The position numbers and the translations under genes are program-made. Below the pieces are notes generated by a model. It saw only the letters and a list, made by a program, of their open reading frames with translations, did not search any database and had not been told where the DNA came from. Of a stretch of DNA of 64,000 nucleotides, positions 26,267-42,426 are shown one piece after another (positions within the stretch are counted from its first letter, which is position 1; every line of letters begins with the position of its first letter). The stretch lies in contig CAJQMR010000009.1 of NCBI GenBank assembly GCA_905479495.1, forward strand, positions 124,001 to 188,000, given 5' to 3'. Origin of the DNA: an uncultured Anaerolineae bacterium. GTDB taxonomy: Bacteria; Chloroflexota; Anaerolineae; Promineifilales; Promineifilaceae.

Positions 26267-26296
26267 CCCTTACATTTTATGGACAAAGGACGCATG

Positions 26297-27709
26297 ATGA
26301 AAACGGCCGTCTGGTGGATTCGTCGTGACTTGCGCCTGGCAGACAACCAGGCGTTAATGGCAGCATGCCAAGCTGCTGACCAGGTGGTTCCGCTCTTTAT
26401 TGTCGATCCCTTTTTTGAGAAATCTGATTATGTGGGCGACAAGCGTCGGGCCTTTTTATGGGCTGGGCTGCGCCAGTTGGATGCCGATTTGCGTGAGCGA
26501 GGTAGTCGGCTCATTGTCCGGTACGGCCGTCCCGCACAAATTCTCGCTGCAATCCTGCAAGAAACAGAAGCCGAAGCCATTTTTGCCGAAGAAGATTTCA
26601 CCAGCTACGCGCAGCGACGCGACAGCCATATTGCCCATCACTTGCCGCTTCACCTTGAAGCCGGTCTGGTTGTGCATCCACCCGGCACCGTCCTCAAACA
26701 GGATGGCAACCCTTACACGGTGTTCACCCCGTTTAAGAAAAATGCCTGGCTGGAACGGCCGTTACCCCAACAATCTGATATTTTACCCGCCCCAAACACG
26801 CTCAACATGCCAGAGACAGTCCATTCCGATGAGCTGCCCACCGCATTGGCACTGCCTAAGGATGTTCCATTTTCCCCTGGCGAAGCGGAGGCGCAGCGCC
26901 GCCTAAAACAGTTTGCTCGGGACGCCATCGACAAGTATGCACAAGAGCGGGACATGGTTTCTGTGGCTGGTACGTCGCAGCTGTCGCCTTATTTGCGATT
27001 TGGCATGATTTCAGCACGGCAGGCGGTGGTTACGGCCGTAACCGCCATGCAGCAAGCGGAAAGCAAAGAAGCTCGCCAAGGTGCCGAAACATGGCTTAGC
27101 GAACTCATCTGGCGCGAATTCTACATGCACGTTCTCTATCATTTTCCCCATGTGTTGCAGCGCAGCTTTCGCCCTGAATACGACAAAATTGAGTGGCGTA
27201 ATCGAGAAGATGAATTTGCGGCCTGGTGTAACGGCCGTACCGGTTACCCGCTGGTTGATGCCGCCATGCGCCAGCTGATCACCAGTGGCTGGATGCACAA
27301 TCGTGCCCGCATGGTTGTGGCTTCATTTTTGGTCAAGGATTTGCTAATCGATTGGCGCTGGGGTGAAAAATTCTTCATGCAGCATTTGGTGGATGGCGAT
27401 CCGGCGGCCAACAATGGCGGCTGGCAATGGACCGCAGGCACGGGTACTGATGCCGCCCCTTACTTCCGCATCTTCAATCCAACCTCCCAAGCTAAAAAGT
27501 TTGATCCCGATGGGGCGTTTATTCGTCGCTGGCTGCCTGAACTGGCTGATGTGCCCAATGGCTACCTTCACGAGCCGTGGATGATGCCGCCGAACGTACA
27601 AAAATCCGCCAACTGCCAGATTGGCAAAGATTATCCAGCCCCCATCGTGGATCATCACGAAGCGCGGGAGTGGACGCTAGCTGCCTACAAAAATGCCCGC
27701 GAGGCATAA
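26297..27709 (+). CDS. phr: Deoxyribodipyrimidine photolyase, class I CPD type
   Basis: 470 aa. Repairs UV pyrimidine dimers with blue light using FAD. N-terminal antenna domain from MKTAVWWIRRDLRLADN; C-terminal FAD domain with LSPYLRFGMISARQ, WLSELIWREFYMHVLYHFP, GYPLVDAAMRQLITSGWMHNRARMVVASFLVKDLL and the Trp/Asn-rich DPAANNGGWQWTAGTGTD. Start: ATG at 26297 has AGGA six bases before; ATGs at 26279 and 26294 are less well placed. Same transcript as the CarH-like gene (30-nt gap), giving light control of a light-driven repair enzyme. Confidence 0.95.
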   Translation: MKTAVWWIRRDLRLADNQALMAACQAADQVVPLFIVDPFFEKSDYVGDKRRAFLWAGLRQLDADLRERGSRLIVRYGRPAQILAAILQETEAEAIFAEEDFTSYAQRRDSHIAHHLPLHLEAGLVVHPPGTVLKQDGNPYTVFTPFKKNAWLERPLPQQSDILPAPNTLNMPETVHSDELPTALALPKDVPFSPGEAEAQRRLKQFARDAIDKYAQERDMVSVAGTSQLSPYLRFGMISARQAVVTAVTAMQQAESKEARQGAETWLSELIWREFYMHVLYHFPHVLQRSFRPEYDKIEWRNREDEFAAWCNGRTGYPLVDAAMRQLITSGWMHNRARMVVASFLVKDLLIDWRWGEKFFMQHLVDGDPAANNGGWQWTAGTGTDAAPYFRIFNPTSQAKKFDPDGAFIRRWLPELADVPNGYLHEPWMMPPNVQKSANCQIGKDYPAPIVDHHEAREWTLAAYKNAREA

Positions 27710-27824: not shown

Positions 27825-28304
27825 TTACAAGGAAAGCAAAAGCGCAATTTGGGGCAAAATAAGGCCAGCTCCGGGGACGCGGTACTGCCAGCCCAGCACT
27901 TCCAGCATGATGTAGTCGGCAATCGCCCACAGCCCAAAACAGCCAATCGAGAAGAAGATAATAGCGATGGAAATGCCCACAAGCAGGCAGCCCTGCCCAC
28001 AGCCAAGTCGAGAAGCGGTTTGTTGGATGCGGCCGTTTGGATTAGCGGCTGGTGGCTGGTTTGCTGGTGGAGAAGCTGTTGGTACCTCTGGGATCGCGGT
28101 TTCTGGTGTTTCAATCTCGCCATGCCCGCGACAGCCATACGCGGCACATTTGTTGCCATTGGCCCGCCAGCAGTGCGTGTGGTGGCGGCTGCTGTCTTCT
28201 GGACAAATAATAATCTCATCCCCTGGGGCAAACGGATTCTTGCACACGACACATTCGTCGCCCAAAAATGGGGATTGTTTGGTAACAGTAATGGGGGAAA
28301 GCAT
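27825..28304 (-). CDS. RING-like zinc-finger protein with C-terminal membrane segment (Prok-RING type)
   Basis: 159 aa. N-terminal treble-clef pattern: Cys18-x2-Cys21, Cys34, His42/His44 with Cys45, Cys53 and Cys58 (CVVCKNPFAPGDEIIICPED ... HTHCW ... CAAYGC). Then a Pro-rich linker and one or two membrane spans (about 103-135). Resembles the prokaryotic RING fingers described beside bacterial E1/E2/JAB genes. Last gene of the ubiquitin-like locus. As a possible membrane-bound E3 or adaptor, its role is inference; no ribosome binding site is evident for this start. Confidence 0.7.
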   Translation of the reverse strand: MLSPITVTKQSPFLGDECVVCKNPFAPGDEIIICPEDSSRHHTHCWRANGNKCAAYGCRGHGEIETPETAIPEVPTASPPANQPPAANPNGRIQQTASRLGCGQGCLLVGISIAIIFFSIGCFGLWAIADYIMLEVLGWQYRVPGAGLILPQIALLLSL

Positions 28305-28310
28305 AGAAGA

Positions 28311-28355
28311 GGGGATTGGGGATTGGAGATTAATCTCTACGAATCTCCAGTCTCC
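28311..28355. repeat. Dispersed repeat, family B (GGAGATT type)
   Basis: GGGGATTGGGGATTGGAGAT then ATCTCTACGAATCTCCAGTC, an imperfect palindrome of GGAGATT units between the two RING-like genes. Further copies at 31902-31950 and, inside a gene, 34625-34652. Confidence 0.7.
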
Positions 28356-28358
28356 GTT

Positions 28359-28790
28359 TTAGCCGATTCTAATTTGATCTAACAGCCATTTAAACAAGCG
28401 TTGCAGCAGGCTGGGACGGCGCAGTTGCTCCACCTGGCGGCGCTGTTCTTCTTTGAGTCGTTTGGTCTGAGCCGAACGGCCGTTTGCCGATGGCCGTGGC
28501 AAGTCTGTGTATTTAATGCTTAACACTGGACTGACAGGGGTGCCATGGATTTTGAATTTGTCATGAGCGCAGCCAAGCACAGCACATTTGCCGCCACCCT
28601 GTTCCCAGCAGATTTTATGGTACAGCGTACCGCATTTGGCGCACACAACTGGCTGCAGCTCGCGGTCTTCGACAAATTTTTCGACCGGGTTGGCACAAAT
28701 GGGGCAGTGCAGGCTTAGCTGATTCGCCTCCTGAATGTCGTTATTCGTGATGGTGAGGGGTGGCATTTCTTGTTCGTCCATTTTGAGCAT
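28359..28790 (-). CDS. RING-like zinc-finger protein (Prok-RING type)
   Basis: 143 aa, no membrane span. Eight zinc ligands in RING order: Cys29-x2-Cys32, Cys50-x2-Cys53, His58-x2-Cys61, Cys69-x4-Cys74 (CPIC ... CAKCGTLYHKICW ... CAVLGC). The second half of the finger is close to that of the neighbouring gene (CW...GGKCAVLGC versus CW...GNKCAAYGC), so the two are related. The rest is charged and helical. Candidate E3 or zinc adaptor in the ubiquitin-like pathway. ATG at 28781 is an alternative start; neither has a clear ribosome binding site. Confidence 0.72.
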   Translation of the reverse strand: MLKMDEQEMPPLTITNNDIQEANQLSLHCPICANPVEKFVEDRELQPVVCAKCGTLYHKICWEQGGGKCAVLGCAHDKFKIHGTPVSPVLSIKYTDLPRPSANGRSAQTKRLKEEQRRQVEQLRRPSLLQRLFKWLLDQIRIG

Positions 28791-28795
28791 TATAG

Positions 28796-28872
28796 CAGTA
28801 ATCGGTTATCGGTAAACGGTAATCGGCTGATTTGTTAATGATTACTGGTTACTGCCCCGATTACCGAATTAC
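28796..28872. repeat. Dispersed palindromic repeat, family A
   Basis: GCAGTAATCGGTTATCGG ... CGGTAATCGG ... CCGATTACCG, able to fold on itself. It fills the space between the JAB gene and the RING gene and overlaps the JAB stop codon. Confidence 0.7.
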
Positions 28873-30059
28873 CAACTGCCAGCGGCCCATTCTGGCCAAT
28901 AAAAATTGTGCCGTGAGACCTGTGTTTTCTGCCGGTCCCAGCTAAAAAAGCCGCTGGTTTTGGCGCGCGGGTCTAGCACAAAGGCTACGTGCCAGATCTG
29001 CGTAAAAAAGTTCTGGTGAATAAATAAATCCATCCCCGACAAAAAGATGCCAAAACCGGGATGGGTATGGTACCAGCCAACGATAACGGCCGTTTCATCC
29101 GGGTACCGTTCGTGCAGCTTGTCGGTCATGTAGCGCCAGCTTTCTGGCGTGTAAGTTACGCTGGCCCCATGCATCACCGTGTATTTGGCGATGATCGTGT
29201 CTAGAATGTGTACCCGGTAACGGCCGTCTGGCTGTTTCTCCGGGCGCGGGCCAATGAGCACCCCGGCCACTTCACGGTTCATGCTGCTCAGTGCATGGGC
29301 TTGGGCGGCGCGCAGAGATGGCTCCTCAATGGTAATGTCCACGGCTGCTGGTGTGGGATCGCCTACCGGCAAATACCGTCCCGCCAGACGCACCCGTGCC
29401 TGGCTAGGGGCAATGACCGTGTCGCTAGTGTCAGCATCTGGCTGCGCTTCCCGCTCTTCATGCACCGGTTCCGGCTCAGATACGATGATGTTGTCAACCT
29501 CATCGTCGGCTTCGACTGCTGGCTCGGTCAGCTCCGGCATTGGCTCAGGTTCTGGTTCGGGTTCAACGGCCGTTTCTTCCGAAACTTCAGCTTCCACTAC
29601 AGCAGGTTCTGCTGTTTCAGCCTCAGTGGCAGGTGCTTCTACTGCCTCATCAATCTGAGGTGTGACTGTGACCTCAATTCCTGAGGCAGGTTCTTCTGTT
29701 GATGGCTCTTCTACCACGGCGGAAACGGCCGTTTCCACCACCATTTTGGCCAGCCACTCGCGGGATGGAGCCACCGGTTCACCGGCTGCGTCCACCACAT
29801 CCATTGCCATTTGTACAGTGTTGTCTTTTACCAGCTCTGCCAGCTTGATTTCACCGTAGGTCTGCCAGATATCAGCTTCGGTCTGGTCGGCGAACGCTTG
29901 CAGCTCGGCCAGGGTACATTCGTGCAGCGTCTTGTAGCTGCCTTCCACCGGCACCAGTTCGGTTGGGGTCAGGCGGATGTTGGCGGAAATGGCCGTTTCT
30001 TGCCCTGGTAAATGTATTTGAATAATCGCCACGTAATGGGTCGTTGTTGATTCAGTCAT
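28869..30059 (-). CDS. JAB/MPN (JAMM) metalloprotease with long acidic linker
   Basis: 396 aa. N-terminal domain (about 1-95) of unknown type, then about 120 residues rich in Glu, Ala and Pro, then a C-terminal JAB domain (about 245-396). The JAMM zinc site is intact: Glu in NREVAGVLIG (near 261) and HTHPGFGIFLSGMD (near 331). JAMM enzymes remove ubiquitin-like proteins from targets. ATG at 30059 is used; an upstream TTG frame is less likely. Second JAB of the locus; the two copies share the core but not the flanking parts. Confidence 0.85.
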   Translation of the reverse strand: MTESTTTHYVAIIQIHLPGQETAISANIRLTPTELVPVEGSYKTLHECTLAELQAFADQTEADIWQTYGEIKLAELVKDNTVQMAMDVVDAAGEPVAPSREWLAKMVVETAVSAVVEEPSTEEPASGIEVTVTPQIDEAVEAPATEAETAEPAVVEAEVSEETAVEPEPEPEPMPELTEPAVEADDEVDNIIVSEPEPVHEEREAQPDADTSDTVIAPSQARVRLAGRYLPVGDPTPAAVDITIEEPSLRAAQAHALSSMNREVAGVLIGPRPEKQPDGRYRVHILDTIIAKYTVMHGASVTYTPESWRYMTDKLHERYPDETAVIVGWYHTHPGFGIFLSGMDLFIHQNFFTQIWHVAFVLDPRAKTSGFFSWDRQKTQVSRHNFYWPEWAAGSW

Positions 30060-30156
30060 AAAATAAAAGTCCAAAGAAGATAGTACGCTGATCTTCCTGA
30101 TTTACCTGATAAAAAAGATCAGAAAAATCAGGGGAATCAGCTGAATCTGCGCCCTA

Positions 30157-31377
30157 TTAAGGAAGTAATTCCACGGCAATAAGGCAGCTGGCTACGCCGG
30201 GCAGAGGGATATTTTGCCGGTCAACGGCCGTTAGCCGAAGTTCGTAACGACCAAACGGTAGTTCACTGGTATCCCACTTGGTGAGTAAGCCCAAATCGGT
30301 TTGGCGGCGCTGCACACCAGCCAGCTCCCAACTCTCGCCATCGGCTGGCCTGTATTCAATCTGATAACGGGCTGCTTCAGGCTGAACGGCCGTGCCCAAA
30401 ATGGCCACATCTTCCCCCAGGGATACACGACTTTCTGCCACCGGAGCCACAATGCGCAGCTGCGCATCGACACAGCTTACCGCATTAATTGATGTTTCAC
30501 CTGCCAGGCTAGCGACGACGCTTTCTAAGCTGTTGACCTGCCGGTTGAGCGCCACCACCCAGCCAAAAAGCAAAAAAAACCCCAGGACAAACCCCAGAAT
30601 CCCCAGCATCGTGCTGTTGGACAAGGTAAAAGATTGGCCTTGCTCAAACGCAGAATGCATCAATCCGGCTTCATCTGCCCCAGCTTCATACGAGGCATAA
30701 AATTGTTCCGTGGCACGCGTATGCCACACTTCCGTTTTGGCCACACGCCAGGGGGCAACAGGTGTTTCTTGCGCATCTAGCTGTTCATAATAGCCCGCGA
30801 TGGGCGCAAGCGTGCCCTCTTGCCAACCAAAGTAGCTGGCTTCATTGCCTAAGGGGTCCACGACCAGCCCCACATGCCATGGCAGCGTGAAAGCGGCCGT
30901 ATGCACTACCACATCATCGCTGGAGTAGAAAACGCCCAGCCCTGGATGGGTGTGGAACCAACCCACAATTTCTAAATTGGGATATTTTTCGGCCCGTTCG
31001 CTATGAATCTGGCTCCAGGCGTCGGCGGTGAAGGTAAAGTGGATGGGGCCATGATCGTCGTTGCGGGCGGGCAGGGCGGCGCTGACTTCTACGATCAGCT
31101 GCTCACCGTCGCGGTAGGCATGGCCGAGCAGCACACCGCCCAGCTCCGAGCGCAGGTTGCTGATGCTGTGCGCCCGAATCTGGCTAAGCGCCTGCTGGCT
31201 GTGGCTGACAACTACCTGGTTGGCAGCGGGTCTTTGGCCATGCAGATGGGCATTGGCGGTGAATGTCGCCAACGGCCGTTCTGGCAAACTGTCAATTTCT
31301 GGTTGGCCAATCATAGGTTCGGTTTCTTCTGGGTGGCGGGTGGAACGGCCGTTAGAGAATGTTGATGCCGAGTTCAT
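30157..31377 (-). CDS. JAB/MPN (JAMM) metalloprotease with membrane anchor and C-terminal beta domain
   Basis: 406 aa. JAB domain about 50-200 with intact JAMM: SELGGVLLG and HTHPGLGVFYSSDD (near 140). One membrane span follows (ILGFVLGFFLLFGWVVAL, about 256-276), then a beta-sandwich-like region (VAPVAESRVSLGEDVAILG ... GRYELRLTAVD). With the JAB domain inside the cell, the C-terminal part would be outside. ATG at 31377 has GGGGAGG 9 bases before and lies inside the E2 gene end (26-nt overlap), implying coupled translation with E2. Confidence 0.85.
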   Translation of the reverse strand: MNSASTFSNGRSTRHPEETEPMIGQPEIDSLPERPLATFTANAHLHGQRPAANQVVVSHSQQALSQIRAHSISNLRSELGGVLLGHAYRDGEQLIVEVSAALPARNDDHGPIHFTFTADAWSQIHSERAEKYPNLEIVGWFHTHPGLGVFYSSDDVVVHTAAFTLPWHVGLVVDPLGNEASYFGWQEGTLAPIAGYYEQLDAQETPVAPWRVAKTEVWHTRATEQFYASYEAGADEAGLMHSAFEQGQSFTLSNSTMLGILGFVLGFFLLFGWVVALNRQVNSLESVVASLAGETSINAVSCVDAQLRIVAPVAESRVSLGEDVAILGTAVQPEAARYQIEYRPADGESWELAGVQRRQTDLGLLTKWDTSELPFGRYELRLTAVDRQNIPLPGVASCLIAVELLP

Positions 31378-31885
31378 CCGATTCTTCCTCCCCAAGCACA
31401 ATCAAATCTTCCAGCGATTGCCCTTTCAGGCTACGCCGGTCGATGGGAAAGAGTTGCTTGTGACGCAGCGCCCAGGCAGCTGCCTTCGAGTTCATCGGGT
31501 CCTTGGGATCAAAATTCTTGTATTGGATCATCTCACCCAAAGTGAGCAGCAGTTCATCTAGCGTTTTGGCAGGCCACCACGCCCCAATGCACACCGCCCC
31601 TGTCACATGAATGTTGGGGTGAAAGATGGGCGTTTGCCACTTTAGCTGCGGCTGCTTTAAGGGGTATTCAGCATGAAGGTAAATGCTCACCTCATGCGAT
31701 TCCCTTAGCAGCGGTTTGCCCGCAGAATTGATCTTTTCCACGCCTTTACAGGTGAACTGGATCAAATATTTTTCGACCGGATCACCGTCAGTAGTAAGGA
31801 TATGGATAAACTCACTGCGATTAACCAGCGCCCGAATCCGCTCGTGGTCGTTGCGCAATCTGGTTTCACGAATATCAAAGGACAT
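31352..31885 (-). CDS. E2-like ubiquitin-conjugating enzyme (UBC fold)
   Basis: 177 aa. UBC-fold landmarks in order: beta-strand segment VEKYLIQFTCKGV, hydrophobic YPLKQPQLKWQTPIF, HPN at residues 89-91, catalytic Cys99 eight residues on (HPNIHVTGAVCIGAWWPA), and the Trp-x-Pro-x2-Thr-Leu-x-Glu-Leu turn typical of E2s. So the thiol-transfer residues are kept. Sits between the ubiquitin-like gene and the membrane JAB gene, overlapping the latter. Confidence 0.88.
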   Translation of the reverse strand: MSFDIRETRLRNDHERIRALVNRSEFIHILTTDGDPVEKYLIQFTCKGVEKINSAGKPLLRESHEVSIYLHAEYPLKQPQLKWQTPIFHPNIHVTGAVCIGAWWPAKTLDELLLTLGEMIQYKNFDPKDPMNSKAAAWALRHKQLFPIDRRSLKGQSLEDLIVLGEEESDELGINIL

Positions 31886-31901
31886 AGTTTTGCCAATTTT
31901 A

Positions 31902-31950
31902 GAGACTGGAGATTAGAGATTGGAGATACCATCTCCAGTCTCCAGTCTCG
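31902..31950. repeat. Dispersed repeat, family B, palindromic copy
   Basis: GAGACTGGAGATTAGAGATT ... ATCTCCAGTCTCCAGTCTC, a palindrome of GGAGATT/GGAGACT units in the short gap between E2 and the ubiquitin-like gene. Confidence 0.7.
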
Positions 31951-31990
31951 TAGCCTCCAACAAAAAACAGAAAAGTTATTTAAATTAGGA

Positions 31991-32257
31991 TTAGCCAGCT
32001 GTTACTTCTGGGAACAGGCTCAGAATATCATCCTCAACCACGCCAGCGTCAGACAGTGATTCATCTTCACTGAGCCGCTTGCCGGAAGAACGATGGTCCA
32101 GGCGGTAGGTGATGGGATTAGCACCTTGGCTGGTGGGGAGTCCCATTTTGCTAACCAGTGCAGGGATCAAACGCCGCATCGGTACGTCGTCTGGTAGTTC
32201 AACCGGGGTCTTTTTTGAGCCGGTGGGATCATAGATGATTGTTTTTATGCTTGCCAT
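31991..32257 (-). CDS. Ubiquitin-like modifier (YukD-like beta-grasp protein)
   Basis: 88 aa. Beta-grasp layout: beta hairpin (KTIIYDPTGSKKTPVELPDD), helix (RRLIPALVSKMG), then the YRLDHRSSGKRLSEDESL element equivalent to the ubiquitin 'leaGkqLedgrtLsDY' region, and VEDDILSLFPEV. It ends in Thr-Ala-Gly, a single C-terminal Gly and no Gly-Gly, with no tail to trim. Flanked by E1 and E2 genes, which makes it the likely conjugated protein. GGAGG lies 11 bases before the ATG. Confidence 0.88.
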   Translation of the reverse strand: MASIKTIIYDPTGSKKTPVELPDDVPMRRLIPALVSKMGLPTSQGANPITYRLDHRSSGKRLSEDESLSDAGVVEDDILSLFPEVTAG

Positions 32258-32416
32258 TTTATAATAGCCTCCATTCGTTTTGGTTGAATTGCTTCTCGGG
32301 CCACACGCCAGGTTATACGGTGGATTTGGATCAAGTCAACTTGATAATACACTTTATAATACGTAGTTTGCCGCTGGGGGTTGCACCCTTTTTGTCAGTT
32401 TTCAGTCAGCAGTTAT

Positions 32417-32478
32417 CGGTAATCAGCAAAGCTTTTTTTAGCCAGACTGAACAACGATTACTAACTTGCTGATTACCG
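32417..32478. repeat. Family A inverted repeat between E1 and ubiquitin-like genes
   Basis: CGGTAATCAGCAA (32417-32429) pairs with TTGCTGATTACCG (32466-32478), perfect 13-bp arms. It occupies the 220-nt gap inside the operon next to the E1 stop codon. Could reduce read-through into the downstream genes. Confidence 0.65.
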
Positions 32479-32481
32479 GCG

Positions 32482-33672
32482 TCAGGCAAACTGTAAAAAC
32501 GTTTCTTTATCGCCTGTCAGCTCCAGATAGATGCTTTCATTTTTGCTGGCGCTGCGGGCGCGAATAATGCCCAAAGGCGGCACGTCCATCTCCGCTAGGG
32601 TGCGGTCCAGGAAAGCTTCACTGCCGTCAATGCGGTGGGTCATGTTCATTTCCCGCCGCCCGCCACAGTTGGGGCAGGTGGATTCATTTTCATACAGCCG
32701 GGCCATCTTACGGAATATGGGAAACACTTCCCCGCAATCCAGACAGTGCATGGTGGTGACGATCTCGCCGTCAAATTCCAGTACGGCATCGTCGGCCAGC
32801 TTTTCTTTGGCGATGGTTAATAGTTCGGCGAGCGTGGTGGCAACGGCCGTACCACTCTCAACCTCCACAATCGGCTCCAGCCGCGCATGGCTCATGCAGC
32901 TCTCTTTAACAGGGTATTCTGTGGTGTAGATATCATTGGTCAGGCCGTTGATCATGACCGCTTTGCCTGGCTGTACTTCCATATTGTGGATTAATTTTAG
33001 CGCTTCCTGCGTCTGCATGGCGGCCACAATCGAGGCGCTGGTGGGTGTAGTGGGTACTTTGCCCTGCAAAATATTTTCTCGCGCCAGCAGCGGGCAGGAG
33101 TAGCGCAGATTGATAATCTGGTAATCCAGGTCAGTGAGGGTGCATTCGTAGCAGGCTCCCTGGCCCGGCCAAAAAACGCGCACAATGCCCATCAGCTCCT
33201 GAATGGCTCCATCGACCCACGGCCGATTGATTTGCCAGCTAAAGCGATTGATAGAAAGTCGCGCCTCGCGGTTGTCCAGGCAGCCGATGATGGCGTCTAC
33301 GTGCCGGAACACGCCCAGACCCATCTCGAAGTTGATGTTGCCGTGCCACGTTTTCACGTTGACGTCCGGGTTAAGCTCCTTCACGCGCTCGGCAGCGGCA
33401 TCTACCTTGCGGCGGCCGCGATCCGAGGCGCGGAACAGGACGGAGCGGCTCAGATTGCTGTCTTCGATGGTGTCGAAGTCGGCAATGAGAAGGTTGCCAA
33501 TACCCATGAGGGCCAAGTTTTTGAGCACTTCGTTTCCGAGTGCCCCCGCCCCAACGACCAGGATGGTGGCGTTGCGCACCACTTCCTGCTGCCACCAGCT
33601 AATGTAGCCGAAGGTATGGTACCGGTCGCTGTCGGGATCGGTGATGATGATTGGTTCAGTTGTTTCAGTCAT
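32482..33672 (-). CDS. E1-like ubiquitin-activating enzyme (ThiF/MoeB fold) with zinc ribbon
   Basis: 396 aa. ThiF adenylation domain: GAGALG at 41-46, DFDTIEDSNLSR (ATP/Mg contacts) around 67-78, and the DAIIGCLDNREARLSIN segment. CYEC (near 180) is the first half of the usual structural zinc site. The normal catalytic Cys position is not obvious; RYSCPLL near 196 is a candidate. An added C-terminal region has CLDC ... CPNC, a zinc ribbon (about 313-340). It would adenylate the C-terminal Gly of the neighbouring ubiquitin-like protein and pass it to E2. Confidence 0.88.
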   Translation of the reverse strand: MTETTEPIIITDPDSDRYHTFGYISWWQQEVVRNATILVVGAGALGNEVLKNLALMGIGNLLIADFDTIEDSNLSRSVLFRASDRGRRKVDAAAERVKELNPDVNVKTWHGNINFEMGLGVFRHVDAIIGCLDNREARLSINRFSWQINRPWVDGAIQELMGIVRVFWPGQGACYECTLTDLDYQIINLRYSCPLLARENILQGKVPTTPTSASIVAAMQTQEALKLIHNMEVQPGKAVMINGLTNDIYTTEYPVKESCMSHARLEPIVEVESGTAVATTLAELLTIAKEKLADDAVLEFDGEIVTTMHCLDCGEVFPIFRKMARLYENESTCPNCGGRREMNMTHRIDGSEAFLDRTLAEMDVPPLGIIRARSASKNESIYLELTGDKETFLQFA

Positions 33673-33694
33673 GTTTCTTCACAGTTGGTTGAGG

Positions 33695-33762
33695 TGGCAA
33701 GTTGCAGGTAGCAGGTCGCAAGTAGTTTCCACTTGCCACTTGCAACGTCTTACTTGCTACCA
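33695..33762. repeat. Dispersed repeat, family C (TTGCAGGTAGCAAG type)
   Basis: GGCAAGTTGCAGGTAGCAGG ... CACTTGCCACTTGCAACG ... CTTGCTACC, palindromic. The same string forms the tail of the lycopene cyclase gene (429-455), and CTTGCTAC is found near 2897. Lies between E1 and the 398-aa gene. Confidence 0.65.
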
Positions 33763-33769
33763 GTCGTTT

Positions 33770-34966
33770 TTAGGAAAGACGCCGGAAAAAGGGCAGCTTA
33801 AATTCGGTGCGGTCCACGTTTAGCGTGACCGATTTGCGCTCGACTTCGCCGCCCAGGTCGCGGGGCCAGGTGATGTCCACGTCGTAGGTGAGGCCGGAGC
33901 GGACACGAACGGGCAGTTCACACAAGAAGACGCCCTCGCGGTTGGTGGTGCCAGCCACATGGGCGTTGATCCCTTTGCAGCGCACTTGCACCTGAATGCC
34001 GTAAAGTCCGGGGCCATCCTGCACATCCTGCACGATGACGCGGAGCTTGGTGCTGCGTAAAGGCTCTTTGTCGCGGCTGAAGCGTTGGCGTACGGCCGTT
34101 CCCAAATTCCCCCCGCTGCTGTTACTTGGCTGTGGTCGAGATTGGCGCGGTTGAGACGGCCGTCTTGGCGGCACCTGGTCAGCACGAATGCGAATCTCCG
34201 GCATACGTACAGGCCGCTGATTTGCTGGCGCAATATCGTCGCTGGTGATGGTGAGTGGGGCGTTGCGCGTTACAGAATTCTGCTCATTGCGCCGCTCACT
34301 TTCATCAACGTGCAGCGTTTCCCGCGCTACCTCGGGGTAGCGCACCGGAATCGGTGGGCGGAAGTGGGGTGGCACCGGGGCGATGGGTTGGCCATCCGGC
34401 ATGGTTTCCAGTGAAGGCGTGCCATCGCCTGGGTTAAAGGCCAGTTTTTTGCCCAGCTTGTCCCGCTCGGTGGCGCTGCGCTGAATTTGCTGCCGCAAAA
34501 AAGTCGCGGTCCGCTTGATGAGCTGCCCGGCCGGACTGTATTCTCCCGGCGGTGAGGCCGGATCGAGCTGGTAGAGCGGATAGCCGCTTTTCCAGGCGTG
34601 GGCAGCGATGCTGAGGGATAGCCAGGAGATTGGAGATTGGAGATTGGAGATTGCGACGCTGGCGGTAACCAGAGCGTGCACTTCTTCGTCTTCAACTAGT
34701 CCAGTTTCTTGCAGCAAATCGTGGATGGCGAGGCGAACGGCCGTCCCACTTCCCTCAACTAATCGGGCAAAATCATGCAGGGTGGGGTCATCCACCACCG
34801 CTGCGGCACGCAGCAGCGCCTTGGCTCGTGATTCTGTGAAATCTGGTACGGGTTCCTCGCTCTGGTTCAGATCGGTAATCAGCCATTCAGTCAGTCGCAC
34901 CGCAAAAATGGGTAGATGGGCGTCATCGAGCTGTTTGAGCAAGGGTATTGTTGAAAGGTCTGTCAT
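33770..34966 (-). CDS. Uncharacterised protein of the ubiquitin-like locus with C-terminal beta-sandwich domain
   Basis: 398 aa, soluble. N-terminal helical region (about 1-150), a low-complexity Arg/Pro/Gln middle (about 185-300), and a C-terminal domain (LRVIVQDVQDGPGLYGIQVQ ... GTTNREGVFLCELPV) with the 'GxxxTdxxGxf' look of carboxypeptidase-regulatory/prealbumin-like folds. Start ATG 34966 with AAGGAA 8 bases before. Residues around 112-121 (ISNLQSPIS) come from an in-frame family B repeat (34625-34652). Between the dynamin-like and E1 genes, so probably a partner or target of the pathway. Family not recognised. Confidence 0.7.
   Translation of the reverse strand: MTDLSTIPLLKQLDDAHLPIFAVRLTEWLITDLNQSEEPVPDFTESRAKALLRAAAVVDDPTLHDFARLVEGSGTAVRLAIHDLLQETGLVEDEEVHALVTASVAISNLQSPISWLSLSIAAHAWKSGYPLYQLDPASPPGEYSPAGQLIKRTATFLRQQIQRSATERDKLGKKLAFNPGDGTPSLETMPDGQPIAPVPPHFRPPIPVRYPEVARETLHVDESERRNEQNSVTRNAPLTITSDDIAPANQRPVRMPEIRIRADQVPPRRPSQPRQSRPQPSNSSGGNLGTAVRQRFSRDKEPLRSTKLRVIVQDVQDGPGLYGIQVQVRCKGINAHVAGTTNREGVFLCELPVRVRSGLTYDVDITWPRDLGGEVERKSVTLNVDRTEFKLPFFRRLS
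34625..34652. repeat. Family B repeat inside a coding region: four GGAGATT units
   Basis: Exactly four tandem GGAGATT units (28 bp). In the gene's frame they read ISNLQSPIS without a stop. The same unit is otherwise seen between genes at 28311 and 31902. Confidence 0.85.
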
Positions 34967-34985
34967 GAGACGTTCCTTAAATATA

Positions 34986-35016
34986 GATTGGTCCAATCTT
35001 CAAGATTGGACCAATC
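34986..35016. repeat. Perfect 15-bp inverted repeat between the dynamin-like gene and its neighbour
   Basis: GATTGGTCCAATCTT, one C, AAGATTGGACCAATC. Each arm is partly palindromic (ATTGGTCCAAT). It nearly fills the 58-nt gap; may be a dispersed repeat or an mRNA processing or stability hairpin. Confidence 0.75.
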
Positions 35017-35024
35017 TTGGTCGT

Positions 35025-37682
35025 TTAGATTGCCAGGCTGGTTTCCAGCTTGTGCAGGCCGTCCCAGACGCGCATCAGCTCTTCCAGATCGGACACATTT
35101 TCCAAGTCCATTTCCATTGCTTCGCGCAGTTCTGGTTTTTGCAAGTTGCGGTCATGCTGCTTCAGCATCGGCTTGACGATGTGGGTGTTGAAGTCCCGCT
35201 CGGCCTTGGTGGCTTCCAGCCAGAAGAGGCGGCGCAGTCGGGGCAGCAGGTCGTCGTCGTTGAACAGGTCATTCAGGATTTCGCCAAAGATGCGGTTGAC
35301 CTTGACGGCGACGTTGTCCAGCTTGTCGGCGTAGCTCATCTCCAGATCGGCTTGCGGCGCTTCCATCCCGGTTTCGCCAATCAGGCTGATGCCCAGATCG
35401 TCGGCAGGTTGGGCCGGTTCATCCAGGATGGCAATATTGATTTCGGGTTCGTCAGCAACGGCTGTTGCTTCGGCCACTTGCTGGGTGTTGTTGGCGGCGG
35501 GTAGGTTGGTCGCCATTTCGCGACGGACTGATTCCACACCGTTCAGCGCGACATCCAGCAGCCGTTCGTTGGTGTTCAACGACAGTTCGCGTTCGCCCTC
35601 TTCCAGTCGATGATGCACGGAGCGTTCTGGCTTCATCAGCTCGTACATCGTCGCTTGCTGGCAAACGTGGCGGAAGTTGCGCCCGACGCGTTCTACCAGC
35701 ACGTTGAATGCTTCGTCTAGAGCCAGACCATCGGCCGTTTCACCGGGGATGGCGTAGCTGTATTCCTGGTTATAGGTAGCGCGTTGCAAACGGCCGTAAA
35801 TTTCATGTGCCTCCAGCGTACGTTCCAGTTCGGCGGCAATCACATCTGCTGCCTGGGGCATGAATTTGGAGATGGAATCCTGCAAAATCAGCTCCACCTG
35901 GAACAGAATGCGCTTGATCGGAATTTCGATGCCGCTGGTACCCCAGATGAGATTGTCATAGGTGACGTCACGGTCGTCCCAATATTCGGTGCCGTAATTT
36001 TCTAGCAAAGTTTCCACTTCGCGCTGCACGGCGTCTTGTACCATGCCTTTAACGCCATTCAACGTGGGGCGTAAAATGTTGCGGAAACGAGCGTCGCTGT
36101 TGGTACGATTGTTCAGCTCCAACAGGGCGTTGTGGAAAGCACGCGGCAGCTCTTTTTGCTGACGGATAATCACGTTTTCAAAGCGGCGTTCTTGCAATTG
36201 TTCCCAGCTGTTGGCAAAGGGCGGGTGTACGCCGCGATGGGCCAGCTGTTTTTCGTAGTAGAAGCGTAGCGCTTGCAGACTGTTACGAATGCGGGTTGCT
36301 GCTTCGCGCAGCTGGCTGCGGACGCGTTCCGTTTTGATGAAAGCGATTAGCTTTTCGCGGAGCAGGGGTACTTCGCTGAGTTTAAGCAGGGCTTCGGCCG
36401 TATCCGGGTCGAGCGGGTCGGTCGCGTTGACCTGGCCTAGCTGGTCACGGAACACCTTTAGAATGCGTTCAGTTTCGCTGGCGAACTCGTCCGGGGCGTT
36501 GTCCGGGTCTTGCACGTACAGCGCGGGAGGGGCCATCACCAGGAAATACGGCCGATTGTGGCCGCGATCGCGGTACCGCTCCCAATAGTTGGGGGCGATG
36601 TAGCGGGTCACTTCTTTGACTTCCAGCTCTGCTTCTGGCAGGCCAGAGTTGAGGCGGTCGAATGCCTGGCGGATGTTGCCGCCGTTGACGGCCAGGAAGA
36701 TTTTGCTGGCAGCTTCGTCCAAATCGCCGCCGCTCAGGCCGAAGAGGCGATTTTCTTTGATCCAGTTGACGGCGGAGAGGGATTTCAGCTCATCTACGCG
36801 TTGGCGACCGGCATCGGTTACGAGGACGATCATGGCGTCTTCGCGCTTCATTTCTTCCAGGGTAATCGCTTCGTGCAGCTTCATGCCTGCGCCCAAACCG
36901 GGCACATCCACAATGCGCAGATAGCCGTTCATGAGCAGGTTTTCCTGCCCAGCCCGTGGTTGAATTTTGAAGGTAGCAGACTTGATGAGCCGAATCTGAC
37001 GCTGCTGGCTGCCCTTGAAGCCGTCTTCACGCAGGTGACGTAAAGAATCTTCATTTTCCAGGGCGAGGCTGCGGGGTGCGGGCGGGCCTTCGGCGTACAT
37101 GGATTTGTTGTGTTCATAGGAGTCGAGACAGTCGATGAGGATTTCTAAATATTCATCCCGCTCGGTCTTGGCGTTTTCGGCTCCATCGGTCATGATTTGC
37201 TGGATAGCTTCACGAGCCTGTTCACGCTCGCCGTCGTTGATGATGTCGAACCCGTCCATTTCGGCCAGTTGGCAAAGACGGCGCACACGTTGGGCAAACT
37301 CATCCTGCGTCCAGTAGGTGAGGACGAGGGATTCAGCTTCGCCTTCTTCTGCTTGTTCTATATAGACGATGGTGCCGGTAACGGCCGTTACGGCCCCGGT
37401 TGGCAGCAAATTGCGTCCCAGCAAGCCATTGATGAGGGTGCTTTTGCCGACGCCCGTGCCGCCAAAAAAGACGAGGGTGTAGGTGCGCTGGGCTAGAATT
37501 TTTTGCGCTTCATCGACGCTTTGCTGTGCCTGGGGCACGGCGCGAATGAGGTAATCGCGCGTTTGGTCGATGACTTGTTGCATGTGAATCCAATGTTCAA
37601 CTTGCGCGGGACTAATGTGGGGGAGTGTTTCCAGGGATGTTTTGAGTTCCTGATATTTATCAGTTTGCTTTTTCGGGCTCAT
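35025..37682 (-). CDS. Dynamin-like large GTPase
   Basis: 885 aa. GTPase domain near the N-terminus: G1 GGTGVGKSTL (about 74-83), G2 Thr in TAVTGT, G3 DVPGLGAG (about 257). A clear NKxD is not seen; LAVNGGN may stand in for G4. A long helical stalk follows (RNSLQALRFYYEKQLAHRG ...), ending in a charged helix. The layout fits bacterial dynamin-like proteins, which bind and remodel membranes. No membrane span. ATG at 37682 has AAGGAAGG 11 bases before. First gene of the ubiquitin-like locus, same strand and close spacing throughout. Confidence 0.8.
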   Translation of the reverse strand: MSPKKQTDKYQELKTSLETLPHISPAQVEHWIHMQQVIDQTRDYLIRAVPQAQQSVDEAQKILAQRTYTLVFFGGTGVGKSTLINGLLGRNLLPTGAVTAVTGTIVYIEQAEEGEAESLVLTYWTQDEFAQRVRRLCQLAEMDGFDIINDGEREQAREAIQQIMTDGAENAKTERDEYLEILIDCLDSYEHNKSMYAEGPPAPRSLALENEDSLRHLREDGFKGSQQRQIRLIKSATFKIQPRAGQENLLMNGYLRIVDVPGLGAGMKLHEAITLEEMKREDAMIVLVTDAGRQRVDELKSLSAVNWIKENRLFGLSGGDLDEAASKIFLAVNGGNIRQAFDRLNSGLPEAELEVKEVTRYIAPNYWERYRDRGHNRPYFLVMAPPALYVQDPDNAPDEFASETERILKVFRDQLGQVNATDPLDPDTAEALLKLSEVPLLREKLIAFIKTERVRSQLREAATRIRNSLQALRFYYEKQLAHRGVHPPFANSWEQLQERRFENVIIRQQKELPRAFHNALLELNNRTNSDARFRNILRPTLNGVKGMVQDAVQREVETLLENYGTEYWDDRDVTYDNLIWGTSGIEIPIKRILFQVELILQDSISKFMPQAADVIAAELERTLEAHEIYGRLQRATYNQEYSYAIPGETADGLALDEAFNVLVERVGRNFRHVCQQATMYELMKPERSVHHRLEEGERELSLNTNERLLDVALNGVESVRREMATNLPAANNTQQVAEATAVADEPEINIAILDEPAQPADDLGISLIGETGMEAPQADLEMSYADKLDNVAVKVNRIFGEILNDLFNDDDLLPRLRRLFWLEATKAERDFNTHIVKPMLKQHDRNLQKPELREAMEMDLENVSDLEELMRVWDGLHKLETSLAI

Positions 37683-37984
37683 TATTCCGTATACCTTCCT
37701 TGCAAAATTTAGATGACGATTTTGATCGTCCTGGTTCATAAAGTTGGTTGCCACAGTTTCAGAATCGCCTTTGTTGTGACGATACACTGGTTTATACGCA
37801 TGGGTTTGGGAAAGGTTGCAGGGTTGGAGGGAAACAGTATTTCAACAGGTGAAAAGGGGCGTTTTAGGATAAATTTCCCTAAATGAGAGTTTGGATTTTT
37901 ACATCTTGATTATTGATCTTATCGCTTTTCTATGCTAACCTTCTCTTTTATAACGCGGTGCGTTATGAGTAATGGAGGCAAATT

Positions 37985-38560
37985 GTGATTATGGGAGCTA
38001 CACAATTAGCAAAACGATTCAAGGCCAAAGATGGTATCGCTGTCTGGGTGCGAATGTTGCGCCAGAAAGATGCTCATTATTTGGTTGATCTGTTTGAGCA
38101 TATGGGGCCAGAGAGCCGATACCGTCGCTTTCATCAGGTGGCAGATAATGTGCCAGCGTCACAGGTGTGGGCGGAGGCAGAGCGAATTGCTACGGCCGTT
38201 CCTGATGAGCAACTGGGCTTGATAGCTTTTTCTACGCTGCCAGGTGAAGGGGAAGTGGCTGTGGGCGTGGCTCGTATTGTTTGGCTTTCTGACACAACAG
38301 CCGAAGTGGCGATGTCTGTGCGGGATGACCGACAAGGACAGGGGATTGGCAAGCGGCTGTTAACGATGGTACTGGAATTGGCACAAATATCAGGGGCAGA
38401 AACGGTGGTTGGTACGATTCAAAATGACAATGAGCCCATGTGGTATTTATTTGATCAACTGCCATATCCAATACTGCGAACCATTGACGGGACTGAGTCT
38501 GAGATTGAGATTGATTTGACGCGAGAGAAAGAGGGGGTGGGGCTGGCAACGGCCGTTTAG
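37985..38560 (+). CDS. GNAT-family N-acetyltransferase
   Basis: 191 aa, GTG start with GGAGG six bases before (ATG at 37991 is an alternative). Acetyl-CoA loop VRDDRQGQGIGKRLLTMVLELA near 115-136, preceded by the strand TTAEVAMSV and with RIVWLS. The N-terminal RMLRQKDAHYLVDLFEHMGPESRYRRF resembles the GNAT domain of PatZ-type protein acetyltransferases. Single gene, divergent from the dynamin-like gene. The last codons form a 13-bp hairpin with sequence past the stop (GGGCTGGCAA / TTGCCAGCCC). Confidence 0.85.
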   Translation: MIMGATQLAKRFKAKDGIAVWVRMLRQKDAHYLVDLFEHMGPESRYRRFHQVADNVPASQVWAEAERIATAVPDEQLGLIAFSTLPGEGEVAVGVARIVWLSDTTAEVAMSVRDDRQGQGIGKRLLTMVLELAQISGAETVVGTIQNDNEPMWYLFDQLPYPILRTIDGTESEIEIDLTREKEGVGLATAV

Positions 38561-38610: not shown

Positions 38611-39945
38611 TTATGATTTTACAACCAACGGTAAATAGATAGGCTTTAGATCATCTAAATAAAACTCGTAAGCGCCAATATCACAGAAACTTTGACTGTC
38701 TCCGTTACCATCATTAGGGCGGATGGCACCACGCTGGTCAATAGAGGGACAAAACGCATTAACACCGTTATCTATCGCTGGGCTATTTGGTAAAAGCGTA
38801 AATACCGGAGCGGCAGTTCCAAAGATAAATAACTTATCCACAAGGGGATCAATATTGTTTTGGTCGCTTAATTGATCAAAATTGCAATCATTACGATCTT
38901 CTAAATTACCACCTCCTGAAATTAACGTGAAGAAATTAAGATCGCTGCAATTGGATTCAAGATTGTTGGCAATAATTGTGTTGTAAACCCAAACTGTCCC
39001 ATCTTGGCTGGCAAGGCCACTGGTTGTTGTAATTGTTGCCGAGTTGTTGGCGATTGTGCTGTTAGTAATTGTCAATACCGGGCTTGGTGTTGTCCCAGAG
39101 TAGTTCCAAATCCCTCCACCAATACCACCAAAGTCTCCTGGTGTTGTTTTGCTTTCATTTCCAGCAATAGTGCTATTAGTTATGGCCATTGAACCAGCAT
39201 TATTTATTCCGCCACCAAACCCAGTAATAAAAGCTTCATTGTCTAAGATTGCACTATTGCTAATTGTCATTGTAGAGTTGGTTGTAACATTCCGAAGACC
39301 GCCACCACCATAGGCGGTTCTATTATTTATAATTGTGCTGTTGGCGATTGTAAATGTGCCATAGTTAGCTATGCCAGCTCCACCATCTGTTGAGTAATTA
39401 TTTCGGATTAATATGTTGTCTGCATAAACGGTTCCAAAGCTTGTACAATTGCAGACTGCACCACCATATGTATCGCCGACATTTGAGGAGCCACTCCCAT
39501 TTTGTAATGTAAGATTTGTCAAGGTAATTGCTTGGCTTGTTGATGGTTGAATATCAAAAATACGCTCTATTGAATTGGCGTCAATGATTGTAGTTACTTT
39601 GTCTTCACCCACTATTGCAACAGAGCTTGTAATATCGATATCGCCTGTTGCCCCAGCTTCTTCAAGGGTCCCGCTTATTGTAAATGTATAGATACCAGAT
39701 GGTAGATTAATTGTTGTGCTATCAGCAGAGGAATTGGCTTCCATAACGGCAGCTCTCAAGGTACAGATGTTATTGTCCACGGCCGTTTCACACACCCCAT
39801 CTCCCGGATTTACATCTACTGCATCTATTGTGCTGTTAACGGTAAAGGTCGCACTGGGACTGGCCTTGGTTTGCAGTGAAGTTATGAATAGGGCAAGAAG
39901 AATAACTGGAACCATAATTGCTAGAAGTAGACGCGAATATTTCAT
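38611..39945 (-). CDS. Secreted beta-helix protein with CSLREA motif (paralogue 1)
   Basis: 444 aa. Signal peptide MKYSRLLLAIMVPVILLALF; then the CSLREA-type segment TVNSTIDAVDVNPGDGVCET ... CTLRAAVMEAN; then right-handed parallel beta-helix repeats (ITNSTIANNSATI, MTISNSAILDNEA) and a final CDIGAYEFYLDD, ending IYLPLVVKS. Start ATG 39945 is preceded by GGAGGGTTCA. Extracellular, possibly polysaccharide-binding or surface protein; no catalytic residues recognised. Close paralogue of the next gene, including the upstream region. Confidence 0.85.
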   Translation of the reverse strand: MKYSRLLLAIMVPVILLALFITSLQTKASPSATFTVNSTIDAVDVNPGDGVCETAVDNNICTLRAAVMEANSSADSTTINLPSGIYTFTISGTLEEAGATGDIDITSSVAIVGEDKVTTIIDANSIERIFDIQPSTSQAITLTNLTLQNGSGSSNVGDTYGGAVCNCTSFGTVYADNILIRNNYSTDGGAGIANYGTFTIANSTIINNRTAYGGGGLRNVTTNSTMTISNSAILDNEAFITGFGGGINNAGSMAITNSTIAGNESKTTPGDFGGIGGGIWNYSGTTPSPVLTITNSTIANNSATITTTSGLASQDGTVWVYNTIIANNLESNCSDLNFFTLISGGGNLEDRNDCNFDQLSDQNNIDPLVDKLFIFGTAAPVFTLLPNSPAIDNGVNAFCPSIDQRGAIRPNDGNGDSQSFCDIGAYEFYLDDLKPIYLPLVVKS

Positions 39946-40036
39946 TGAACCCTCCATGTTTGAGATGATGATTTGAAAATATGTTGCGAAACGGCCGTTC
40001 CTTTTCAACTGGCAAGAACCGCCCGACACGGGAAGG

Positions 40037-40065
40037 ATTATAATTTGGGGGCTGAATGTGAACAA
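40037..40065 (-). promoter_or_regulatory. Promoter of beta-helix paralogue 1
   Basis: Minus strand TTGTTC (40065-40060), 17 bp, TATAAT (40042-40037). Sequence from here to the start codon is almost identical to that before paralogue 2. Confidence 0.65.
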
Positions 40066-40090
40066 TTGACAAAAGTCATTTATTTACAAA

Positions 40091-40120
40091 AAAAACGCGC
40101 CCAGTAATGGGCGCGTTTTT
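40091..40120 (-). terminator. Terminator of beta-helix paralogue 2
   Basis: AAAAACGCGCCC, loop of 6, GGGCGCGTTTTT, directly after the stop at 40122; T8 follows on the minus strand. Confidence 0.85.
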
Positions 40121-40121
40121 A

Positions 40122-42191: not shown

Positions 42192-42282
42192 TAAACCCTC
42201 CAAGTTTGAGATGATGATTTGACAATATGTTGCGAAACGGCCGTTCCTTTTCCACTGGCAAGAACCGCCCGACACGGGAAGA

Positions 42283-42311
42283 ATTATAATTTGGGGGCTG
42301 AATGTGAACAA
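42283..42311 (-). promoter_or_regulatory. Promoter of beta-helix paralogue 2
   Basis: Minus strand TTGTTC (42311-42306), 17 bp, TATAAT (42288-42283), same as for paralogue 1. Confidence 0.65.
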
Positions 42312-42330
42312 TTGACAAAAGTCATTTATT

Positions 42331-42370
42331 TACCAAAAAGCGCGCTCACTGCTGAGCGCGCTTTTTGGTA
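42331..42370 (-). terminator. Terminator of the giant repeat protein gene
   Basis: Perfect 18-bp stem TACCAAAAAGCGCGCTCA / TGAGCGCGCTTTTTGGTA with loop CTGC, 57 nt past the stop at 42427. Confidence 0.85.
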
Positions 42371-42426
42371 AGTCTGTTGTAAATTTGTCTTACAATCAGT
42401 TGTAGATTTGTTGTGAAAGGAATTCG

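Follow-up and report, generated by a model that had tools for sequence, protein, structure and literature searches.

Prokaryotic gene neighbourhoods that combine ubiquitin-activating (E1) and ubiquitin-conjugating (E2) enzymes with JAB peptidases, RING proteins and YukD-like ubiquitin-like modifiers (Ubls) were reportedly described by Burroughs, Iyer and Aravind in 2011 (a study cited in PMC11354881), and the core set E1/E2/Ubl/JAB/RING is known from comparative genomics. In that class, the YukD-like Ubl is reportedly predicted to be conjugated and is accompanied by an E2 with an HPN motif and a Cys, a JAB, a Prok-RING and an E1 with a C-terminus resembling the ubiquitin-fold domain (UFD). Here we describe a nine-gene locus of this kind in a 64,000-nucleotide stretch of DNA (the window), part of the 7.28 Mb assembly of an uncultured Anaerolineae bacterium. 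Compared with this class, the locus has the same Ubl type, E2 motifs, JAB and Prok-RING and possibly, to judge from a predicted model, a UFD-like E1 C-terminus; beyond it, the locus adds a dynamin-like GTPase, an orphan protein termed X408 (in some relatives together with a CAP protein), one more JAB, one more RING, which is located in the membrane, a candidate docking motif shared by several of its proteins, and fixation across one family. On balance, we lean towards a core membrane-associated Ubl-conjugation system whose client or effector would be the module of the dynamin-like GTPase.

The locus also resembles the ubiquitin operon of Caldiarchaeum subterraneum, i.e. a compact Ub-E1-E2-RING-JAMM set (PMC5654768). 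That operon, which has been reconstituted in vitro, is archaeal, encodes a di-glycine ubiquitin with a nine-residue tail, and is described with neither a GTPase nor X408 nor a membrane-anchored JAB or RING. E1, E2 and JAB, as well as the transfer of a Ubl or Ubl-like protein, are likewise common to the locus, the Bil operons (BilABCD) and Cap2/Cap3 of the cyclic oligonucleotide-based anti-phage signalling system (CBASS). In contrast to Bil and CBASS, which are mobile defence operons, with a two-domain Ubl (PMC11354881) and no RING in Bil as described, the present locus has a single-domain YukD Ubl, RINGs and vertical inheritance. Bub operons are ubiquitination-like bacterial operons as well (Gong 2025; Ye 2026, as cited in PMC13373217), and many of them carry the stress regulators CapW, CapH+P or CapK+S, none of which was seen beside the locus. 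As to the GTPase, its nearest solved structure is Slr0869/SynDLP (5e-9), which like other bacterial dynamin-like proteins is a large dynamin-type GTPase with a related G domain (PMC10104851); the likeness is confined to this domain, and no Ubl partners are reported for SynDLP.

The locus lies on the minus strand (37787-27825) and comprises, in order of transcription:

35025..37787, minus strand: dynamin-like GTPase, 920 amino acids (aa) from a GTG; Pfam Dynamin_N
33770..34996, minus strand: X408 orphan protein, without Pfam or PDB sequence match
32482..33672, minus strand: E1-like enzyme with ThiF/MoeB adenylation domain, Cys193 in RYSCPL
31991..32257, minus strand: YukD-type Ubl of 88 aa, C-terminus PEVTAG; Pfam YukD
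31352..31885, minus strand: E2-like conjugating enzyme, HPN 89-91 and Cys99; Pfam UQ_con
30157..31401, minus strand: JAB-TM, a cytoplasmic JAMM peptidase with a transmembrane (TM) helix; Pfam Prok-JAB
28869..30074, minus strand: JAB2, a soluble JAMM peptidase with the complete motif in its C-terminal domain; Pfam JAB
28359..28790, minus strand: RING-1, a soluble Prok-RING_1 protein (PF14446) with C4HC3 ligands
27825..28304, minus strand: RING-2, a Prok-RING_1 protein (PF14446) with a C-terminal TM helix

An earlier note on this DNA, made from the sequence alone, had listed these nine genes on one strand in this order; all are present, its coordinates and residue calls (E2 HPN, which lies at 89-91, and Cys99) are correct, and the starts it had chosen, i.e. 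ATG 37682 for the GTPase (giving 885 aa) and ATG 34966 for X408 (398 aa), look right, as in the orthologues. Intergenic gaps range from 28 to 224 bp, the single overlap being that of E2 and JAB-TM, and the unit is bordered by a divergent GNAT gene (37985-38560, plus strand) and a convergent photolyase gene (26279-27709, plus strand). The Pfam E-values are 8.7e-12 for Dynamin_N, 9e-54 for ThiF, 7e-12 for YukD, 4e-14 for UQ_con, 9e-10 and 5e-10 for Prok-JAB/JAB, and 5e-9 and 2e-7 for Prok-RING_1, both of the latter past the family cut-off. A scan with the E2 yielded 48 loci. Since about 20 contigs, each assembled separately, show the identical one-strand gene order, as judged by tblastn and maps of open reading frames (ORFs), the arrangement is far beyond chance.

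Both the gene set and the catalytic residues of a complete Ubl-conjugation locus, as had been claimed, are present. Cys193 of the E1 is invariant among 41/41 orthologues, and the E1 profile finds its best sequence matches in UBA7/UBA1 (1e-35). The AlphaFold model of the E1 (mean confidence score, pLDDT, of 85) has as top Foldseek match UBA3 in the trapped NEDD8-E1-Ubc12 complex, with 465 columns aligned at a large root-mean-square deviation (rmsd). In this model, the C-terminal strands follow the beta-grasp order with a zinc ribbon inserted, which is consistent with a UFD, a reading that is suggestive only because the rmsd of this full-length alignment is large. The earlier description of the E1 as ThiF plus zinc ribbon holds for the ThiF part; the ribbon is present here, yet its four Cys are kept in 31/41 orthologues and lost in 10/41, and the ribbon is therefore dispensable rather than an essential part of the enzyme. 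The E2 retains HPN and Cys99 in 51/51 orthologues, and its best PDB matches are eukaryotic E2s, the best being yeast Ubc1. JAB-TM has both HxHx7SxxD and the catalytic Glu in 38/38, and a TM helix in 37/38 (near residue 265, with a C-terminal domain beyond the membrane); in JAB2, HxHx7SxxD is found in 34/35 (Glu 34/35, His 35/35, Asp 34/35). The zinc ligands of RING-1, the N-terminus of which carries the LTITNNDIQEANQ motif, are kept in 30/30, while RING-2 has both its ligands and its TM helix in 20/20, so that the TM segments of JAB-TM and RING-2 support the membrane location proposed from the window. Taken together, the locus very probably encodes a working conjugation cascade. A further UBC-like match of the same genome, a distant one at 23% identity, lies inside a 553-aa frame (G000:C2:49438-49830).

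Mean pairwise identity is highest for the Ubl (0.89; E1 0.75, E2 0.74, GTPase 0.74, and JABs, RINGs and X408 0.46-0.56), as expected for a modifier that is read by many partners. Its TAG stands at the C-terminal end, or at most six residues from it, in 40/41 orthologues, the remaining one ending in VAG. Nearly all terminate exactly at VTAG, and four carry one to six extra residues (TAGLF, TAGQGRRA, TAGRS and TAGA), i.e. conservation stops at the glycine, as it should in a precursor that a JAB cuts to size. The Ub precursor of Caldiarchaeum is trimmed in this manner by its own JAMM enzyme (PMC5654768).

The P-loop GGTGVGKST and the switch motif DVPGLG of the GTPase are found in 24/24 sequences. 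X408 has no family or sequence relative in Pfam or PDB searches; its AlphaFold model (pLDDT 80) predicts a helical domain (28-186), a disordered linker containing an LTITxxDI motif, and a beta sandwich (313-404) that resembles transthyretin/CnaB in Foldseek. This modelled architecture does not support a fumarylacetoacetase, to which a weak Pfam match (0.009) had pointed, and the likeness to HIUase is one of fold only. Directly downstream of the GTPase, some genera have a conserved gene of about 92 aa (L084 9416-9694, L096 18074-18463, L213 6645-6926), and others a different small membrane gene (L048, L049, L059).

Whole-genome searches in 35 genomes of one family (labelled f1, most likely Promineifilaceae) recovered the GTPase, X408 and the E1 in 34 genomes each and the E2 in 32, with GTPase and X408 found in 0/24 genomes outside the family. 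Several absences fall at contig ends: the contig of G010 stops in X408, with the GTPase expected next, and that of G013 breaks inside the Ubl. Adjacency was seen in 29/33 genomes for GTPase-X408, in 25/33 for X408-E1 and in 28/32 for E1-E2. In several genera (e.g. G024, G030 and G016) the GTPase/X408 pair has been relocated as a unit, and in some others the E1 is separated from the Ubl-E2-JAB-RING block; that adjacency is kept despite such demonstrable reshuffling is a stronger argument than the co-occurrence counts. The earlier note would have abandoned its proposal if the GTPase and the 398-aa gene were not conserved beside E1/E2 in relatives. Instead, both occur in 34/35 genomes, X408 adjoins the E1 at the frequency given above, and the two behave as true partners which move together even away from the E1-E2 core. 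The GTPase/X408 pair is probably linked in function to the conjugation system. Evolutionary distances of GTPase and E2 correlate with a rho of 0.81, compared with 0.59 (GTPase) and 0.52 (E2) against recA, although the recA values are probably underestimates because one sequence per genome was used with paralogues unsorted. Most genomes of the family indeed have two full-length RecA paralogues, which in the genome of the window lie on G000:C28 and G000:C10.

Further ties within the locus are suggested by a short motif, phi-[TRSK]-[IL]-[TRS]-x-x-[DE]-phi, common to RING-1 (24/30), the X408 linker (27/37) and the N-terminus of an extra CAP-domain protein (PF00188; 15/16), compared with 21/972 other ORFs; as the motif was found by looking, P-values are descriptive. 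About half of the loci have the CAP gene, placed between X408 and E1; it is absent from the window, where the motif stands at ~34230 (X408 linker) and ~28750 (RING-1 N-terminus); loci with the motif or CAP are L045, L048-L052, L054, L057, L060, L062, L063, L082, L093 and L129. That three unrelated proteins of one locus carry the motif suggests a common docking partner. Judging from its residue pattern, we favour a candidate motif of the beta-augmentation type, similar to SUMO-interacting motifs (SIMs). An FHA-binding pTxxD motif was considered, given that relatives carry FHA proteins and kinases, and is disfavoured because several CAP proteins have Arg at position 4.

Related systems occur elsewhere in the phylum. 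Other Chloroflexota families have the order E1 (with N-terminal GntR), RING-TM, Ubl::E2 fusion, Ubl, JAB, TM-FHA and VWA, and this natural fusion, in which the VTAG/ITAG junction is retained, links the Ubl described here with its E2. In L081, L097 and L099-L103 the fusion precedes another Ubl gene, which is free, and the E1 has a GntR helix-turn-helix (HTH; Pfam-confirmed in L097); by eye, the operon stands beside the secE-nusG-ribosomal protein cluster in L097, L099-L101 and L103. In the same-order relative G035 (L081 4305-15418), E1/RING/Ubl::E2 are accompanied by a TM-FHA protein, an FHA-like JAB and a pair of Ser/Thr kinases, which suggests that a related system is phospho-regulated. In G273, of another family (L131 1-4871), an E2-JAB-TM-LysM fusion and a different dynamin-like GTPase, which has a zinc ribbon at its N-terminus, stand tail-to-tail at a distance of 85 bp; since the pairing did not recur among 47 genomes of its class, this single case gives only a hint of an independent dynamin/Ubl pairing outside the family. 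A euryarchaeal metagenome-assembled genome (MAG) has a close E2 (43%) beside a MoxR-type AAA ATPase and a VWA-like protein (L079 9974-13057), with neither Ubl nor E1 found near it, and a Nitrospira MAG has a compact trio of Ubl (ending in VVAG), E2 and JAB (L078 880-2535).

If the locus is a membrane-associated Ubl-conjugation system with the GTPase module as client or effector, a JAB would trim the Ubl to VTAG wherever a tail exists, the E1 would adenylate it and accept it on Cys193, and the UFD-like domain would present it to the E2. Cys99 of the E2, together with soluble RING-1 or membrane-bound RING-2, would then transfer the Ubl onto proteins of the cytoplasmic membrane, from which JAB-TM and JAB2 would take it off again. 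The GTPase and its putative beta-sandwich adaptor X408 would be the regulated machine, and the shared motif would dock X408, RING-1 and, where it is encoded (about half of the loci), the CAP protein to one partner, perhaps the Ubl itself. The output might be membrane remodelling or repair under reversible control, similar in logic to the ubiquitin control of eukaryotic mitofusin-type dynamins; that remodelling is what is controlled has, in our estimate, close to an even chance. More tentatively, a conserved Ubl code might, as a core process of the family, control a dynamin-type membrane machine, with RING ligases (E3s) as writers, the two JAMM enzymes as erasers and the SIM-like motif of otherwise unrelated proteins as reader, which, if true, would be a bacterial parallel to the ubiquitin/SUMO control of mitofusin and Drp1.

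Several observations speak against this model. Conjugation is predicted here from genes, motifs and folds; Bacillus YukD, a relative of the Ubl, was reported to be unconjugated (PMC1779556); and the UFD assignment of the E1 depends on a model and on the large-rmsd alignment. Hydropathy shows no TM helix in the GTPase, and that it binds membranes is an assumption. Moreover, 7-8 of 33 genomes have the GTPase/X408 pair away from the E1; the f1 genomes all belong to a single clade, so that co-occurrence counts are not independent trials; and this GTPase is missing from the related E1/E2 systems found elsewhere in the phylum, indicating that the core can work without it.

Phage defence had also been suggested for this DNA, as in Bil or CBASS Cap2, with phage or defence proteins being tagged and the dynamin sealing or sacrificing the membrane, as proposed for Bacillus DynA. 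Related bacterial E1/E2/JAB sets do act in defence (PMC10097602; for Bil, as summarised in PMC11354881), such a role is conceivable because a Bacillus dynamin protects against phage (as cited in PMC10104851), and PADLOC gives weak matches to E1-E2 (1e-19) and LeoBC (1e-9) that cover parts of the proteins. Nevertheless, we consider defence unlikely: the locus is found in nearly all genomes of the family and inherited like recA, its components are highly conserved and not fast-evolving, and it has ordinary neighbours, i.e. photolyase, GNAT, peptidase M32 and transporters. A PADLOC search of the flanks found no defence genes, only a generic match to the HTH of a MerR regulator, which speaks against a defence island, and the E2 profile found no relative among 2.9 million viral contigs, which speaks against a viral or mobile origin. 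Neither patchy distribution nor mobility was seen, and the earlier suggestion is thus not borne out. Near-universal presence, tree-like inheritance and housekeeping neighbours rather favour a core membrane function, and the place of the other-family operon beside the secE-nusG-ribosomal protein cluster likewise favours a core role.

Alternatively, two separate systems might merely be neighbours, i.e. a Ubl-conjugation operon and, upstream of it, a GTPase/X408 membrane machine. The location of the pair elsewhere in several genera and the Ubl systems of other families without GTPase/X408 would fit this, but adjacency is kept in most genera though E1-E2 and GTPase-X408 can each relocate, co-occurrence is 34/35 in the family versus 0/24 outside, and the X408 linker bears the same motif as RING-1, encoded at the opposite end of the operon; we regard such a coincidence as rather improbable. 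Somewhat less probable still is that the Ubl is a proteolysis tag for a bacterial proteasome or AAA protease, in a general quality system for membrane proteins: degradation tags usually go together with RING E3s and JAB peptidases, and two components are membrane-anchored, but no protease or AAA unfoldase is encoded in the cassette or conserved beside it, and the dynamin would be left unexplained. A non-covalent YukD function in type VII secretion, or a sulphur-carrier pathway of the ThiS/MoaD type, to which the Pfam YukD match and the ThiF/MoeB-like E1 sequence might point, is very improbable, as WXG100 proteins are absent from 9/16 Ubl-carrying genomes (and on another contig in that of the window), which rules out the Ubl as a secretion component, while the E1 is closer to eukaryotic E1s, and such pathways have no use for a canonical E2, two JAMM peptidases or RINGs. 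The WXG100 proteins of the window's genome, i.e. seven clustered family matches, some in large ORFs, unlinked to the Ubl locus (G000:C7:277472-294791), mark a probable type VII secretion/toxin locus.

Beside the nine-gene unit, the window encodes three large exported repeat-rich proteins (38611-47751); those of 729 and 484 aa have near-identical N-termini, pointing to a recent duplication, and the third has tandem cadherin-like repeats.

A 2024 review of bacterial homologues of human E2 catalytic domains found no more than single cases in four phyla, Chloroflexota not being among them (PMC11354881). In a partial coverage of the literature, we found no link between a bacterial Ubl system and a dynamin. 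To our knowledge, no dynamin is known in Bub operons either. As far as checked, several features look new: the GTPase and X408 (plus CAP) module, the fact that it is fixed in one family, the occurrence of both JABs and RINGs as pairs in which one member is a membrane form, the Ubl precursor tails, and the motif shared by RING-1, X408 and CAP. While those bacterial Ubl systems that have been studied well are accessory operons for defence, a full RING-containing cascade, of which the modifier is by far the most constrained part, is here near-universal in one family, which makes it testable whether ubiquitin-like signalling does housekeeping in bacteria. The locus, moreover, connects a Ubl system with dynamins, a connection otherwise regarded as eukaryotic, and suggests that bacteria, too, may control their membranes via reversible protein tagging.

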